A stretch of DNA of 61,255 nt from an uncultured Oscillospiraceae bacterium (lineage in GTDB: Bacteria; Bacillota; Clostridia; Oscillospirales; Oscillospiraceae): positions 1-61,255 of the forward strand of contig CALWWW010000013.1 in NCBI GenBank assembly GCA_944385365.1, in the 5' to 3' direction. Position 1 is the first letter of the stretch. Each line of letters opens with the position of its first letter. Both the position numbers and the translations under genes were made by a program. Of this stretch, positions 48-60,167 are shown one piece after another. The notes under the pieces are model-generated. The model was given only the letters and a program-made list of their open reading frames with translations, did no database searches and was not told the origin of the DNA.

Positions 48-1547
48 TTAGTCCAAGGGCTTCATCGTGGGGAACAGAATCACATCACGGATGGAATCCG
101 CGCCGGTCAGCAGCATGACACAACGGTCAATGCCGATACCCAGGCCGCCCGTGGGGGGCATACCATACTCCAACGCCGTCAGAAAATCCTCGTCCATCAT
201 ACCGGCCTCGTCGTCGCCCTTGTCCCGCAGCTCCACCTGCTTCTGGAAGCGGCCGCGCTGATCAATGGGGTCATTGAGCTCGGAGAATGCGTTGCCCATT
301 TCACTGTGGCAGATGAACAGCTCGAAGCGCTCCGTCAGGCGGGGGTCCTTGGGAGACCGCTTGGCCAGCGGGGACACATCCACCGGGTGCATGGTGATAA
401 AGGTGGGCTGAATCAGCTGCTTTTCCACCCGCTGATCGAAGCACTCATACAGGGCGTTGCCCCAGGTCTTATCCGCCGTCTCCGGCAGCTCCACACCGAT
501 GGCAGCGGCAGCAGCCACGGCTTCCTCATCGCTGTCGATGGCCATAAAGTCAATGCCGCAATACTTCTTGACAGCTTCGTGCATGGGCATACGGGGCCAG
601 CCGGGCGCCAGATTGATCTTCTCGCCCTGCCATTCCATCTCATAGGTGCCCAGCAGCTTCTGAGCCGCAGAGGTCAGCAGATCCTCAAAGAGGTCCATCA
701 TATCATTGAAATCCGCATACGCCTGATAGAGCTCAATGGTGGTAAACTCCGGGTTGTGCTTGGGGTCCATACCCTCATTGCGGAAGATACGGCCAATTTC
801 GTACACACAGTCCATGCCGCCGACGATCAGCCGCTTCAAGGGCAGCTCGGTGGCAATCCGCATATACATATCGATATCCAGCGTGTTGTGGTGCGTGATA
901 AAGGGCCGGGCCGTAGCGCCGCCGGAAATGGTATTCAATACCGGCGTCTCCACTTCCATATAGCCGCGGTTATCCATGAAGTCACGGACATGCTTGATGA
1001 ACTTGGAGCGAATCTCGAAGTTCTTGCGGACCTCGGGATTGACGATCAAATCCACATAGCGCTGGCGGTACCGGGTCTCCTTGTCGGTCAGGCCGTGGAA
1101 CTTCTCGGGCAGCGGCAGCAGAGACTTGCTCAGCAGCGTCACCTTCTCGGCCCGGACGCTCATTTCACCCCGCTGGGTGCGGAACACGGTGCCGTCAACG
1201 CCGACAATATCACCGATATCGTATTTCTTGAAGAGATTATAGCACTCCTCGCCCACTTCGTCCTTCCGGACATAGAGCTGAATCCGGCCGGTCTTGTCCT
1301 GCAAATCGCAGAAACTGACCTTGCCCATGCCGCGCTTGCTCATGAGACGGCCGGCCACGGACACCGGCTGGTTCTCCATGGCGTCAAAGTTGGCCTTGAT
1401 GGTGGCGCTGTCGCTGGTTACCGTAAATTTTGTCAGCTGGAAGGGGTCATTGCCGCTCTCCTGCAGCTGGCTTAGCTTCTCCCGGCGGATGCGCACCTGG
1501 TCGCTGTACGACACCTCGGGCTGTTCATTTCTCTTTTCTTCAGACAC
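48..1547 (-). CDS. lysS: Lysyl-tRNA synthetase, class II
   Basis: Charges tRNA-Lys with lysine in the cytoplasm. The 499-residue product has the usual bacterial length and layout. An OB-fold anticodon-binding domain spans about residues 60-140. The class II catalytic domain follows, with motif 1 around 195-204 (GYMEVETPVL), motif 2 at 255-259 (FRNEG) plus the downstream HNPEFTT segment, and motif 3 at 467-475 (GGLGIGIDR). The ATG is preceded by a good ribosome-binding site (AGGAGGTAACC). It lies just downstream of greA, 21 bases away, and is probably co-transcribed from the greA promoter, a frequent pairing in Firmicutes. Nothing is odd about it; the stop lies 48 bases from the window edge. 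Confidence 0.98.
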   Translation of the reverse strand: MSEEKRNEQPEVSYSDQVRIRREKLSQLQESGNDPFQLTKFTVTSDSATIKANFDAMENQPVSVAGRLMSKRGMGKVSFCDLQDKTGRIQLYVRKDEVGEECYNLFKKYDIGDIVGVDGTVFRTQRGEMSVRAEKVTLLSKSLLPLPEKFHGLTDKETRYRQRYVDLIVNPEVRKNFEIRSKFIKHVRDFMDNRGYMEVETPVLNTISGGATARPFITHHNTLDIDMYMRIATELPLKRLIVGGMDCVYEIGRIFRNEGMDPKHNPEFTTIELYQAYADFNDMMDLFEDLLTSAAQKLLGTYEMEWQGEKINLAPGWPRMPMHEAVKKYCGIDFMAIDSDEEAVAAAAAIGVELPETADKTWGNALYECFDQRVEKQLIQPTFITMHPVDVSPLAKRSPKDPRLTERFELFICHSEMGNAFSELNDPIDQRGRFQKQVELRDKGDDEAGMMDEDFLTALEYGMPPTGGLGIGIDRCVMLLTGADSIRDVILFPTMKPLD

Positions 1548-10084: not shown

Positions 10085-10198
10085 GCATGTCTTCGGGGCA
10101 GGGTGAAATTCCCGATCGGCGGTGACAGTCCGCTAGCGGCAACGCATGAACCGGTGCAATTCCGGTACCGACAGTATAGTCTGGATGGGAGAAGATAT
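10085..10198 (+). promoter_or_regulatory. FMN riboswitch (RFN element)
   Basis: The conserved RFN blocks appear in order: CTTCGGGGCAGGGTGAAATT, CCCGATCGGCGGTGACAGTC, the variable arm, AACCGGTGCAATTCCGGT, and CGACAGTATAGTCTGGATGG followed by GAGAAGA. It precedes the riboflavin transporter gene. When FMN is bound, the downstream terminator is expected to form and switch transport off. Confidence 0.97.
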
Positions 10199-10226
10199 GA
10201 CGTATTCCCTTAAAAGGGTCCGTCGT

Positions 10227-10281: not shown

Positions 10282-11037
10282 ATGAAAGAACTTCTGCAAA
10301 CCGCATCCGAAAACGTCTCCTTTCTGCTGGTGAGCCTGCTGGTCTTCGCCGCTCTGGTGGCCGTGGCCAAGCTCTCCGAACGGCTGGTCCACGCCGACCT
10401 GCACCGCCCCGCTCAGTCCCGTTACATCGCCTTTGTGGCCATGTCCGCTGCTTTGGGCGGCATTCTCATGTACTTTGAGATTCCCCTGTTCTTCGCTCCC
10501 TCCTTCTATCAGCTGGACCTGAGCGAAATCCCCGTTCTGATCTGTTCCTTCTATCTGGGCCCCGTGGCCGGCGTCATCACCGAATTCCTGAAAGTGGTGA
10601 TCAAGCTGTTCATCAAGGGCACTTCCACGGCGTTCGTCGGTGACTTCGCCAATTTCGTCGTAGGCTGCACCTTCCTCTTGCCCGCTACCATCTTCTATCA
10701 CATCCGCAAGACGAGAAAGATGGCTGTGATCGGCATGGTGGCCGGTACCATTATCATGGCTATCTGCGGCAGCCTGTTCAACGCCCTGTACCTGCTGCCC
10801 ACCTTTTCCGTCCTCTACGGTATGCCCCTGGATGCCATTGTCGGCATGGGTAAGGCCGTCAACCCCGCCATCAACAGCGTGACCATGCTGGTACTGCTGG
10901 CGGTTGTTCCCTTCAATCTCCTCAAGGGCGCTGTGGTCTCCGTGGTCACCTTCGCTCTCTACAAGCGCACAGAGCGTGCCCTGTCGAGAGTGATGCTGCC
11001 CCAGCAGCGTCCCGCCCGTCACGGCACGGTTTCCTGA
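10282..11037 (+). CDS. ribU: Riboflavin ECF transporter S component
   Basis: Substrate-binding membrane subunit of an energy-coupling-factor riboflavin importer. The 251-residue protein has about five or six hydrophobic helices and the RibU-like region YIAFVAMSAALGGILMYFEI near residue 52, followed by LDLSEIPVLICSF. The ATG at 10282 is favoured by GAGGTGAT upstream; an ATG nine bases earlier is less well placed. The FMN riboswitch directly upstream supports the substrate. The shared ECF ATPase and T subunits are not in this window. Confidence 0.93.
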   Translation: MKELLQTASENVSFLLVSLLVFAALVAVAKLSERLVHADLHRPAQSRYIAFVAMSAALGGILMYFEIPLFFAPSFYQLDLSEIPVLICSFYLGPVAGVITEFLKVVIKLFIKGTSTAFVGDFANFVVGCTFLLPATIFYHIRKTRKMAVIGMVAGTIIMAICGSLFNALYLLPTFSVLYGMPLDAIVGMGKAVNPAINSVTMLVLLAVVPFNLLKGAVVSVVTFALYKRTERALSRVMLPQQRPARHGTVS

Positions 11038-53484: not shown

Positions 53485-54597
53485 TTATGCAAAACTTTTC
53501 AGCCTTTCCACAACTTCCAGCGTCCGAATGATCTCCGTCTCTGTGGTAAACGCCGACAGGCTGAACCGGACGGTTCCGCCCTCCAGCGTTCCCGCGCTTT
53601 CATGGGCCAGGGGCGCGCAGTGGAGCCCCGCCCGCACGGCAATCCCCTCCTCGGCCAGACGCTGGGCCGCCGCTTCGCTGTCCAGATTTTGCAGCACCAC
53701 GGAGACCACATTGGTCTGCGGACTGCCCGTAAACACCCGCACATGGTCCATGGATGCCAGGCTGCGGCAAAGCTGCCGGCTTAGCTGTTCTTCCCGGCTC
53801 CGGCGCGTCTCACTGTCCTCCTGCCGCAGATACGTCAGCCCTGCCAGCAGGCCACAGATACCCGGCATATTGTGGGTGCCCGCTTCGGCCCGCTCCGGCA
53901 GCTCCTCCGGCATGGTCCACTGGCGGGACAGCACGCCGGTACCCCCCTCCATTAGCGGCTGGGGTACCTGTCCGCAGAGAAGAATGCCGGTGCCCTGGGG
54001 GCCGTACAGTCCCTTGTGGCCGGGCATGGCCACATAGGCTGCCTGCCACCCTTTCAGAGAAACCGGCAGCAGCCCCGCCGACTGGGACGCGTCCACGATC
54101 AACGGTACGCCCCGTTCCCGGCACAGGGCAGCAATTTGTTCCACCGGCAGCCGGTATCCAAACACATTGGATACATGGGTGCAGACCACAGCTTTGACCT
54201 CCGGCGTCAGGGACGCGGCAAAGGCCGCCACGGTATCCTCCGGGGCAAACAGCCGCCGTCCGCAGATGCGCAGCTTGGCCCCCAGGGCATACAGGGGCCG
54301 CAGCACGGCGTTATGCTCAAAGCCCGACAGCAGCACCACATCGCCGGGGTGTATCAAACTTTTGATGGCGATATTCAGTCCATGGGTGGCGTTCATGGTA
54401 AACACCACCTGTTCCGGTTCCGCGTCAAACAGCTGTGCCGCCACTGAGCGGGCGCGGTACAGTACATCGGCGGCCTCCATGGCCGCCGGATGGCCGCCGC
54501 GTCCCGGTGAGGCCAAGTGCTCCAGCGCATAGGCAACGGCTTCCCGTACCTGAGGCGGTTTTTGCAGCGTTGTGGCCGCGTTGTCGAGATAAATCAC
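53485..54597 (-). CDS. Cysteine desulfurase-family class V aminotransferase
   Basis: PLP enzyme of 370 residues of the EF2568-type cysteine desulfurase subfamily. The start MIYLDNAATTLQKP is followed by PLP Lys195 in MPGHKGLYGPQG and the active-site Cys327 in RAGLHCAPLAH. The start is a GTG (54597) with GGGAGGTG upstream; it overlaps the DUF3343 stop by four bases. This subfamily occurs with DUF3343 in clusters linked to selenium- or sulfur-carrying pathways; here only the two genes are present. Confidence 0.92.
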   Translation of the reverse strand: MIYLDNAATTLQKPPQVREAVAYALEHLASPGRGGHPAAMEAADVLYRARSVAAQLFDAEPEQVVFTMNATHGLNIAIKSLIHPGDVVLLSGFEHNAVLRPLYALGAKLRICGRRLFAPEDTVAAFAASLTPEVKAVVCTHVSNVFGYRLPVEQIAALCRERGVPLIVDASQSAGLLPVSLKGWQAAYVAMPGHKGLYGPQGTGILLCGQVPQPLMEGGTGVLSRQWTMPEELPERAEAGTHNMPGICGLLAGLTYLRQEDSETRRSREEQLSRQLCRSLASMDHVRVFTGSPQTNVVSVVLQNLDSEAAAQRLAEEGIAVRAGLHCAPLAHESAGTLEGGTVRFSLSAFTTETEIIRTLEVVERLKSFA

Positions 54598-54845
54598 AGA
54601 AACACCTCCCGATGGATGCCGTTTTCCACGGTATAGAGCCGTCCGAAGTCCACATGGTTCTGCCGCAGCACCGACACCGCCCCTGCCAGCGACTCCCGCC
54701 GCAGGGCCAGCACATAGCCGCAGCCCCGGTCCGCCAACGCGGCCGGAAGCCGCTGCAAGCGGCACGGAATGCCCGAATAATCCAAAAGCTCCGCCCCCCG
54801 TTGGGCCCGCGTGATGGTGCGGAACGCAATCATACAATCATACAT
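54594..54845 (-). CDS. DUF3343 (putative Se/S carrier-like) protein
   Basis: An 83-residue protein of the DUF3343 family. YDCMIAFRTITRAQRGAELL is the family start, followed by a GCGYVLAL segment whose cysteine could carry sulfur or selenium. Translationally coupled to the desulfurase-like gene. GGGGAGGG precedes the ATG. The function is inferred only from family context. Confidence 0.85.
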   Translation of the reverse strand: MYDCMIAFRTITRAQRGAELLDYSGIPCRLQRLPAALADRGCGYVLALRRESLAGAVSVLRQNHVDFGRLYTVENGIHREVFL

Positions 54846-54941: not shown

Positions 54942-54969
54942 TTGACAAGGTTTCGGAATTGCTTATAAT
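54942..54969 (+). promoter_or_regulatory. Promoter of the lysine riboswitch transcript
   Basis: -35 TTGACA (54942-54947) and -10 TATAAT (54964-54969), both perfect consensus, with a 16-base spacer. Confidence 0.85.
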
Positions 54970-55155: not shown

Positions 55156-55183
55156 GAGGTTCCGGCTGTCCGGAACAGTCTGT

Positions 55184-55220
55184 CATGGTCCGCCTCCCGA
55201 ACCATGGCATTTTTATTTTT
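55184..55220 (+). terminator. Lysine riboswitch terminator
   Basis: CATGGT (55184-55189) pairs with ACCATG (55201-55206), extendable by ATGCCAT/ATGGCAT pairing further out, followed by TTTTTATTTTT. An upstream GGTTCCGG/TCCGGAAC hairpin may be part of the alternative fold. Confidence 0.8.
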
Positions 55221-55232
55221 GGAGGAAATCCT

Positions 55233-56969
55233 ATGAATCTGCGAAACCGGAGACCCCTGCTCTCCCTGCTGATGGTGGTCATGATTCTGGCCGCGCTGAC
55301 CATCGCCGTCATGGCCGCCGGACAACCGGCCACCAATCTGGTGGAGTGCCCCGACTGCGGCGGCTCCACGGCCTGCATGACCTGTTATGGTCTGGACCCG
55401 TCCTGTGCCGACTGCGCCGGGACCAACGTCTGCGCCACCTGCGGCGGTATGGGGCAGATCGACGCCCCCAGCAACTATTATAATACCATTTGGGCCCTGC
55501 TGCCCCCGGTCATTGCCATCACGCTGGCGCTGATTACCAAGGAGGTCTATTCCTCCCTATTCATCGGCATTCTGGCCGGCGGCTTGTTGTACTCCAACTT
55601 CAACTTCGAGGGGACCGTGCTCCACGTCTTTGAAGACGGCATCGTCTCGGTGCTGTCCAGCTCTTATAATGTGGGCATTCTCGTCTTCCTGGTGATTCTG
55701 GGCGCTATGGTCAGCCTGATGAACAAGGCAGGCGGCAGCGCCGCGTTCGGTCGCTGGGCACAAAAGAGCATCAAGAGCCGCACCGGCGCTCAGCTGGCCA
55801 CCATCATTCTCGGTGTGCTGATCTTTATTGATGATTACTTTAACTGTCTGACCGTCGGTTCCGTTATGCGGCCGGTCACCGACAAGCATCAGGTGTCCCG
55901 TGCCAAGCTGTCCTATCTGATCGATGCCACCGCCGCCCCCGTCTGCATCATTGCCCCCATCTCCTCCTGGGCCGCCGCCGTGTCCGGCTTTGTGGAGGAC
56001 GGCTCCGGTCTCTCCCTGTTCATCCGTGCCATTCCCTACAATTTCTATGCGCTGCTGACCATCGTCATGATGGTGGGACTGGTGGTTCTCAAGGCCGATT
56101 TCGGCCCCATGGCCCGCCATGAACGCAACGCCATCGAACGGGGCGACGTGTTCTCCGGCTCCAATCCCTATGCCACGGAAAAAGAGCTGTATGTGAATCC
56201 CAAGGGCCGCGTCATCGATCTGGTTTTCCCCATTGCCTCCCTCATTGTCTGCTGCGTCATCGGCATGATCTACTCCGGCGGCTTCTTCTCCGGTGAAAAC
56301 TTCGTGGACGCCTTTTCCGGTTCCGACGCCTCTGTGGGTCTGATGCTGGGCTCCGCCTTTGCCATGGTGCTGACTTTTGTCTTCTACCTGTGCCGTCGTG
56401 CCATGACCTTCCGTGACATGATGGACTGCATCCCCGAGGGCTTCAAGGCCATGGTCCCGGCCATTCTGATTCTGACCTTTGCCTGGTCTCTGAAAGCCAT
56501 GACCGATTCCCTGGGCGCTGGTGTCTTCGTGGCCACCGCCGTCAAGAGCTCCGCCGCCGGATTCCAGGCGCTGCTCCCCGCCATTGTTTTCGTCATCGGC
56601 GCGTTTCTGGCCTTTGCCACCGGCACCAGCTGGGGCACTTTCGGCATTCTGATTCCCATTACCTTGGATGTCTTCGATCTGTCCACACCCATGGGCATCA
56701 TCTGTGTGTCCGCCTGCATGGCCGGCGCCGTCTGCGGCGATCACTGCTCCCCCATTTCCGACACCACCATCATGGCATCCGCCGGTGCACAGTGCGACCA
56801 TGTGAACCATGTGTCCACTCAGCTGCCCTACGCCATCACCGCCGCCGCCGTATCCTTTGTGACGTATATCCTGGCCGGATTCATTCAGAACGCCTGGATT
56901 TGTCTGCCCATCGGCATTGTGCTGATGCTGGGTACGCTGCTGGTCATCAAGCGGGTCACCAAAAAATAA
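55233..56969 (+). CDS. NhaC-family transporter (LysW-like) with a Cys-rich zinc-finger-like insert
   Basis: Membrane transporter of 578 residues in the NhaC Na+/H+ antiporter superfamily. The lysine riboswitch upstream indicates a lysine transporter, matching the LysW candidates described in riboswitch surveys. Family features include FIDDYFNCLTVGSVMRPVTD and CGDHCSPISDTT. The unusual part is residues 39-73: after a first hydrophobic helix (about 8-29) come eight cysteines in four CxxC pairs (39/42, 48/51, 58/61, 67/70), three followed by a glycine pattern as in DnaJ zinc fingers. The ATG at 55233 has GGAGG eight bases upstream. Direction of transport is not visible. Confidence 0.88.
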   Translation: MNLRNRRPLLSLLMVVMILAALTIAVMAAGQPATNLVECPDCGGSTACMTCYGLDPSCADCAGTNVCATCGGMGQIDAPSNYYNTIWALLPPVIAITLALITKEVYSSLFIGILAGGLLYSNFNFEGTVLHVFEDGIVSVLSSSYNVGILVFLVILGAMVSLMNKAGGSAAFGRWAQKSIKSRTGAQLATIILGVLIFIDDYFNCLTVGSVMRPVTDKHQVSRAKLSYLIDATAAPVCIIAPISSWAAAVSGFVEDGSGLSLFIRAIPYNFYALLTIVMMVGLVVLKADFGPMARHERNAIERGDVFSGSNPYATEKELYVNPKGRVIDLVFPIASLIVCCVIGMIYSGGFFSGENFVDAFSGSDASVGLMLGSAFAMVLTFVFYLCRRAMTFRDMMDCIPEGFKAMVPAILILTFAWSLKAMTDSLGAGVFVATAVKSSAAGFQALLPAIVFVIGAFLAFATGTSWGTFGILIPITLDVFDLSTPMGIICVSACMAGAVCGDHCSPISDTTIMASAGAQCDHVNHVSTQLPYAITAAAVSFVTYILAGFIQNAWICLPIGIVLMLGTLLVIKRVTKK

Positions 56970-56980
56970 TACGGCAAAGT

Positions 56981-57016
56981 TAAAAGGACCGATGCTCGCG
57001 CATCGGTCCTTTTTTT
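56981..57016. terminator. Bidirectional terminator between the NhaC-type gene and ispF
   Basis: AAAGGACCGATGC and GCATCGGTCCTTT form a 13-bp stem with a four-base loop and T7 on the plus side. The minus strand also gains a T-rich tail, so both convergent transcripts can end here. Confidence 0.92.
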
Positions 57017-59755: not shown

Positions 59756-60115
59756 ATGCGACCGGGCCGGACAGCCGCGCGACCAGTACCGAAAGGTCGG
59801 CCGTGAGGAAAGTCCGGGCTCCACAGGGCAAGGATAACGGGTAACGCCCGCCGAAGGCGACTTCAGGAAAAGTGCAACAGAGATATACCGCCCCGCCGGT
59901 ACTTGTATCGACGAGGTAAGGGTGGAAAGGCGAGGTAAGAGCTCACCCATCAACGGGGAACCGCTTGATGCTGTAAACTCTATCCGGAGCAACACCGCAG
60001 AGGGGACTCAGGCTTGCCCGGCCGTCCCCGAGAAGGTGGCTGGAGCGTACCGGCAACGGTACGCCTAGATAGATGGCTGTCGATTACAGAACCCGGCTTA
60101 TAGGCCCGATCGCAT
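59756..60115 (+). ncRNA. rnpB: RNase P RNA, A type
   Basis: Catalytic RNA of RNase P, which trims tRNA 5' ends. The conserved core is clear: GAGGAAAGTCCGGGCTCCAC (59815 on), CAGGGCAAGGATAACGGGTA, and the 3' segment ATTACAGAACCCGGCTTATA. The ends pair to form P1 (GATGCGAC.. with ..TCGCAT). Loop and helix content (including the CACCGCAGAGGGGACTCAG region) fit class A rather than the Bacillus B type. Confidence 0.96.
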
Positions 60116-60167
60116 TTTATACAGAAGCAAACCCCCGGCCCAGCCGTAATCTCATTAAGATAAGCAG

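Follow-up and report, generated by a model that had tools for sequence, protein, structure and literature searches.

To our knowledge, DnaJ-type zinc modules built on CXXCXGXG repeats are found mainly inside cells or plastids. The plastid zinc fingers BSD2/ZnJ2 and PSA2 carry such a module without a J-domain, and PSA2 lies on the lumenal side. Anti-TRAP (RtpA, PF15777) has two CxxCxGxG zinc motifs and is described, in the excerpt drawn on here, as a trimer-forming, TRAP-binding protein of 53 residues (PMC2896485). The LysW/NhaC proteins that are found under lysine riboswitches are candidate lysine transporters of unproven function, according to excerpts of two papers (PMC5584792, PMC11477304). 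In those excerpts a Cys-rich outer module is absent from the descriptions of these transporters, and the word ‘cysteine’ occurs 0 times in that of PMC5584792. Among the open-access papers listed, titles and abstract openings likewise pointed to no transporter, of the NhaC family or otherwise, that has a module of this kind. In the part of a further paper that was consulted, obligate anaerobes are described as tending to exclude cysteine from the proteins that they export (PMC12453122).

Our study concerns a transporter gene in a window of 61,255 nucleotides, the whole stretch of DNA analysed, from an uncultured Oscillospiraceae bacterium. The protein shares with the LysW/NhaC transporters a lysine riboswitch and an NhaC-family core, and carries an eight-cysteine (Cys8) module ahead of that core. 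Like the Cys-rich domain of DnaJ (PF00684), the module has four CxxCxG repeats and, in its predicted model, short strands at both ends; unlike that domain it is condensed (gaps of 5-6-5), acidic rather than basic, below the Pfam cut-off, probably extracellular, without a J-domain and fused to a transporter. Two-repeat inserts in related NhaC proteins resemble anti-TRAP in their two motifs, but belong to a transporter, which anti-TRAP does not have. BSD2/ZnJ2 and PSA2 differ in being eukaryotic, and no transporter core is mentioned in the excerpts that describe them. The architecture in the window is new, while its parts are known.

Results

The coordinates of the locus are given in Table 1. 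The protein matched PF03553 with 182.8 bits (E 1.2e-53; Pfam cut-off 23 bits), which places it in the NhaC family, and this was the only family matched when the whole protein was compared with Pfam at E up to 1; a J-domain, as in type I J-proteins, was not found at that level. Against TIGR00931, the NhaC Na+/H+ antiporter equivalog, it scored 46.4 bits, with 370 required. In a structural search the core, as predicted, resembled transporters of the IT superfamily, and the top match, going by its title, was modelled jointly with MetQ. As MetQ is a lipoprotein of the cell surface, this match hints that NhaC kin may be able to have outer partners.

Table 1. Features of the transporter locus in the window
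Feature	Position	Strand	Basis
Sigma-70-type promoter, TTGACA-16-TATAAT	54942..54969	+	12/12 consensus positions (consensus scan only)
Lysine riboswitch aptamer, RF00168	54982..55153	+	81.4 bits, gathering score 30
Terminator-like hairpin and U-run between aptamer and gene	55181..55220	+	MFE fold; inferred expression platform
NhaC-family (LysW-type) transporter gene, 578 aa	55233..56969	+	ORF and PF03553 match
Leader helix, residues 7-29, signal-peptide-like	55251..55319	+	AlphaFold helix; pLDDT <50 at 28-32
Eight-Cys CxxCxG module with flanking strands, residues 36-77	55338..55463	+	
Transporter core, residues 83-578, IT-superfamily-like fold	55479..56966	+	
Intrinsic-terminator-like stem 3' of gene	56982..57013	+	14-pair stem and T tail

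The lysine riboswitch that an earlier note on this DNA had placed before the gene, and that is characteristic of LysW-type transporters, was detected well above its gathering score, with 79 nt between the end of the aptamer and the transporter ATG. The hairpin and U-run that follow the aptamer are probably its OFF switch; this hairpin was present in the MFE fold, absent from the centroid and from a strict terminator scan, and the whole segment gave a z of -1.22, which is not significant. The strict scan did list the intrinsic-terminator-like stem 3' of the gene; it found two such sites, compared with 2.0 expected in shuffles. Only two lysine riboswitches were detected in the source genome (91 % complete): that of the window and one at G000:C10:57873-58055 (L001), upstream of a dapA-dapB-like gene pair on the same strand, the names of which were assigned by reading translations. 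Their positions before the transporter and before this pair fit a lysine-repressed importer, and are consistent with one rather than proof of it. Upstream, at 53485-54845, two genes are oriented away from the transporter; we take one to be cysteine-desulfurase-like and the other, which is small, to resemble DUF3343. Near-copies of the window apart, this pair accompanied L006, L008 and L016 and no other locus tested. Elsewhere the window holds an FMN riboswitch (10085-10200) and an RNase P class A RNA (59759-60116).

Between leader and core, residues 39-73 (55347-55451; CPDCGGSTACMTCYGLDPSCADCAGTNVCATCGGM) hold four CxxC pairs that start at residues 39, 48, 58 and 67, and both the pairs and their placement between the leader and the NhaC core were as described in the earlier note. 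Each pair is followed by x-G, and the full CxxCxGxG occurs in the fourth only. The short strands that border the module in the AlphaFold model lie at residues 36-38 and 75-77; pLDDT was 82-85 over the blocks at 41-80, and strand 36-38 falls in a block of mean pLDDT 68. The reading frame through the module is open and is preserved in orthologues that are 98 % identical over their full length, the closest named relative among the matches listed being Candidatus Avoscillospira avistercoris (L025, 98 % identical). Four CxxC within 35 residues were obtained in 0 of 20 000 shuffles of the protein (shuffle maximum, three). These shuffles and the orthologues exclude a frameshift or chance origin of the cluster. 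The doubts that the earlier note had itself raised, namely that the insert might be missing from all close homologues, frameshifted or variable in its cysteines, did not materialize, as homologues carry the insert in frame with the cysteine pairs conserved.

The DnaJ-like nature proposed for the insert held in part. There is a resemblance of the CXXCXGXG type, and 3 of 10 class-wide inserts scanned passed PF00684 (cut-off 32.7 bits; L267 35.4, L278 39.1, L279 39.2), with L274 just under it at 31.9, but the window copy fell below the cut-off with no match listed, and it has the second glycine in one repeat rather than in four, as the full DnaJ pattern would have. L278 also passed DUF5351 (31.6 against a cut-off of 27). 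For anti-TRAP (cut-off 32 bits) no match was listed for the window, and L029 scored 12.0 bits. Among six N-termini scanned against Pfam, the eight-Cys insert of L029 passed DUF7895 (PF25433), a family of uncharacterized function (27.3 against a cut-off of 27), for which the window scored 14.6-16.8. When 31 inserts were scanned alone at E up to 1, anti-TRAP was matched in 21 (best 2.6e-6) and PF00684 in 18 (best 1.8e-4); one ribosomal and one uncharacterized family were matched in 20 each, which indicates that cysteine spacing alone drives part of the family matches, and many other zinc families matched weakly. An eight-Cys profile searched against the PDB gave as its best match the DnaJ Cys-rich domain 1exk (E 0.0094, no single stretch passing alone), followed by a ferredoxin (E 0.016); anti-TRAP was reached at E 0.74.

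The module was found to vary in a restricted manner. In the first two sets of loci, each of the 56 rows with an insert carried two CxxC repeats (35 rows) or four (21 rows), never one or three, and a C..C.G half module was seen in 0 of 168 insert-free rows; the sole row with a single CxxC, L131, has the pair at the end of its leader. All eight cysteines were invariant in 15 of 15 aligned eight-Cys rows, a result that is partly circular because insert rows were called by at least two CxxC and these 15 were excised with the 5-6-5 pattern. The repeat counts of two or four and the lack of half modules act as a check on this circularity, and show the cysteine pairs to be kept whole across insert rows. 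The 56 loci gave 48 unique modules, 14 of which are eight-Cys forms with gaps of 5-6-5. Linkers in the two-repeat modules measured 15 residues in 26 modules, 10 in three, 4 in two, and 7 and 20 in one each, whilst L127 has a tandem of two complete two-repeat units before the NhaC core, spaced 15-19-15. Within the 48 modules, 89 of 126 CxxC were followed by xG, 88 of 126 had a G two further on, and four modules each had one extra unpaired cysteine. The 11 class-wide inserts were more regular, with xG in 36/36 and xGxG in 34/36 module repeats (two of their 38 CxxC lie in the leader or upstream), and all four repeats in the full CxxCxGxG form in L267 and L275.

By eye, the four-Cys forms retain the flanks of repeats 1 and 4 (IECPDCG... 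and C..CGGxGY[VI]xSPS) with the middle replaced. MAFFT aligns the second pair of these forms with repeat 3 and leaves just their tail for repeat 4; against that placement, we read these forms from their flanks as putative repeats 1 and 4. One zinc ion of DnaJ is held jointly by repeats 1 and 4 and the other by repeats 2 and 3, and with such pairing the loss of the inner pair would leave one whole zinc site. A different acidic extension, with YVDNY- or YIENYS-like stretches, was seen by eye at the same spot between leader and core in L009, L102, L255, L256, L258, L261, L263 and L289, which suggests that the outer site accepts several kinds of module.

Expressed as rates of sets of best matches (best 80 of 591 kept), and not of populations, the insert was present in 33 of 103 rows of the first set, with a riboswitch in 32 of the 33 and in 31 of the 70 insert-free rows. 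The family set, in which 143 of 330 genomes had a homologue at E 1e-60, gave 23 inserts among 83 N-termini read (riboswitch in 23/23, compared to 51/60 of those insert-free). The class set, with matches in 106 of 391 genomes at 1e-120, gave 11 among 49 (riboswitch in 6/11, and in 13/38 insert-free); all 11 carriers came from families other than that of the window, and 20 of these loci had been chosen partly for early-starting alignments (insert in 8/20 versus 3 of the other 29). Overall, with duplicates included, a riboswitch preceded 61 of 67 insert rows; riboswitches were called with an nhmmer model from 37 Rfam hits, and their absence from a row is relative to this model and to the limited sequence available upstream. 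The duplicates include L002 and L003, which are the window, L004 and L025, which share a contig, and several family-set loci that repeat genome-contig loci. The survey of riboswitch-linked NhaC proteins that had been proposed thus did recover homologues with the insert, but the link to the riboswitch was not specific: a strict tie is rejected by the insert-free rows that have one and by the six insert rows without. One of the latter kind, L006 from the same genus (G003), has a four-Cys form, no lysine riboswitch upstream and conserved neighbouring upstream genes.

Across the order, the eight-Cys profile, which misses two-repeat forms, matched in 3 of 295 genomes: at the window, at the lipoprotein of L109, and at L110, where the matching frame has a stop. 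The L109 protein (347-1279, minus strand, in another genome of the order) is lipoprotein-like and 310 aa long. Eleven of its twelve C..C.G repeats are full CxxCxGxG, and it is apparently an exported zinc-finger-like array without a transporter. A second protein with a CxxC array was seen in the window's own genome at L106 (562-1665; G000:C8, match 10614-10676; the same piece as L225), in the order N-terminal zinc ribbon, one hydrophobic stretch and C-terminal tail of four CxxC (three CxxCxGxG). From our reading of its topology this array possibly faces outward, and its module was found in 1 of 60 genomes, its own, with none in the other 59 at E 1e-5.

The window leader has a basic start and a cleavage-like end. 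A cleavage-like [AVSTGLI]xA site, by a rule of our own, was present in 84 of 90 leaders of first-set rows, where start sites of homologues were also set by rule; ten rows had no leader by rule, with L056 and L082, for example, beginning at the core and L102 having a longer upstream extension. Between leader and core lie five D/E and no K/R, and the protein ends in KRVTKK, past 13 core segments in a crude hydropathy scan. The signal-peptide-like leader, the near lack of K/R and a core able to begin outside suggest that the module is probably outside the cell, whether the leader is cleaved or kept as an anchor. A cytoplasmic module is disfavoured by the leader, the charge pattern and the leader-less members. 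The outward orientation given in the earlier note is therefore probable, but its caveat that a cleaved helix would alter this was mistaken, as cleavage still leaves the module outside. In some class-wide relatives the leader has, by eye, no clear cleavage site, and cleaved and anchored forms may both exist.

The 48 unique modules contain 3 K/R versus 249 D/E in 1616 residues, compared to 256 K/R versus 105 D/E in 2064 residues of 31 Cys-rich stretches of DnaJ proteins encoded in the same order. The bias is milder in class-wide inserts (23 K/R and 93 D/E in 582 residues, some leader residues counted), and past residue 30 the 91 leader-bearing rows with and without insert contain 41 K/R and 386 D/E in 2149 residues. 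Mean charges of ten transporter loops differed most between proteins with and without insert at inner loop 292-327 (-2.93 versus -1.11) and outer loop 425-443 (0.00 versus -1.62). The latter, picked after seeing the means and the only loop tested further, was not upheld in independent pairs (median p 0.5). A docking face revealed by loop charge was rejected, as no charge change in this outer loop tracks the module once relatedness is allowed for.

On trees of the core, presence or absence of the insert required 4 changes among 99 rows, 9 among 143 and 16 among 178, 10 of the 16 being forced by starred branches alone; these are quick trees with SH-aLRT support only, in which gains are not separable from losses. 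A single clade for all inserts was rejected by the AU test, with 28 main rows, L010 and L018 as one side (p 1.35e-6); the 28 main rows alone, a group named after seeing the tree, were not rejected (p 0.187). The history may be one of a single early gain with many losses, or of transfer. Eight-Cys and four-Cys forms are intermixed within the main clade, which indicates multiple losses or regains of the inner repeats, or transfer of the N-terminus from one lineage to another. A weakly supported group (67) joins L246, which comes from another family, with eight-Cys forms.

Discussion

We propose, with a probability of roughly 0.5, that the transporter is a probable lysine importer to which an exported, acidic, zinc-stabilized module of the DnaJ/anti-TRAP kind has been added as an optional part on the outer side, for docking or modulation, lysine being its putative substrate. 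The transporter would be made when lysine is scarce, and its IT-superfamily (elevator-type) core would import lysine. The leader would be inserted like a signal peptide, and the next ~45 residues would fold into a compact acidic Cys8 module at the outer mouth, probably holding two Zn2+, by repeats 1 and 4 and repeats 2 and 3, in a structural role. Lying outside the transport pathway, the module would be an outer accessory, most likely docking a partner or another subunit, or steadying the outer vestibule. Relatives that lack the module still have the core, and those that carry the module have complete cysteine pairs, so that it looks like an optional accessory under selection, and we count the changes on the 178-row tree in favour of this role. 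We favour a role in docking, in assembly or in stabilizing the outer face over one in gating. The functions suggested in the earlier note, a metal-bound gate, a redox sensor or a partner-binding site, are all conjectural.

The acidity of the module could be read differently, as an electrostatic antenna that concentrates lysine or Na+ at the mouth, since Zn(Cys)4 sites are negative too. The scarcity of K/R in the 48 modules (3, versus 249 D/E) and past residue 30 in leader-bearing rows with and without insert (41, versus 386 D/E) would agree with this, but low K/R just past a signal peptide is expected from export alone, and the imbalance is smaller in class-wide modules (23 and 93 in 582 residues), so that we regard an antenna as quite unlikely. 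Tandem CxxC pairs may alternatively bind iron or form disulfides. The pairs themselves, and the ferredoxin that was the second PDB match of the profile, would allow a rubredoxin- or ferredoxin-like iron site in place of zinc; this we consider highly improbable, as the ferredoxin match covers 20 profile residues, less than the whole module, and both the xGxG pattern and the matches in Pfam speak for the DnaJ/anti-TRAP kind.

A redox or metal switch, in which outer zinc thiolates lose zinc and form disulfides upon oxygen, oxidant or zinc scarcity and so alter the outward gate, would suit a module that in the AlphaFold model stands immediately before the first core helix, and would suit outer CxxC pairs in an anaerobe lineage where, from the excerpt consulted, exported cysteine tends to be excluded (PMC12453122). 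However, linkers of 4-20 residues in two-repeat forms and the existence of insert-free relatives suggest no fixed switch geometry, and such a switch appears unlikely to us. We are similarly doubtful of a chaperone-like role as in BSD2/ZnJ2 and PSA2, in which the module would aid folding or assembly of the transporter rather than its activity. Excerpts on the plastid proteins provide precedents for assembly or holding roles, as ZnJ2 is a zinc-binding holding chaperone with four CXXCXGXG motifs (PMC5818400), and PSA2 lies across a membrane, in the thylakoid lumen (PMC7662858). The module is, however, absent from many relatives, and ZnJ2 deficient in cysteine retained its holding activity, according to the same excerpt (PMC5818400), whereas here the cysteine pairs are the conserved feature. 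An outer docking or modulating accessory is the reading that we prefer.

In a wider sense, and as a speculation that we rate as rather improbable, Clostridia may have evolved an exported, zinc-loaded DnaJ-type module, present in other exported proteins too, as an interchangeable outer cartridge that was repeatedly grafted onto lysine-regulated NhaC transporters, where it would read zinc, redox state or a surface partner and tune lysine uptake. A conserved outer Cys8 module that recurs on a transporter described, in the excerpt consulted, as of unproven function (PMC11477304) offers a handle on what NhaC proteins carry, as well as on the possible control of a transporter by a zinc module on its outer side, and the natural variants, with no module, two repeats, four repeats or a tandem, form a ready-made test series.
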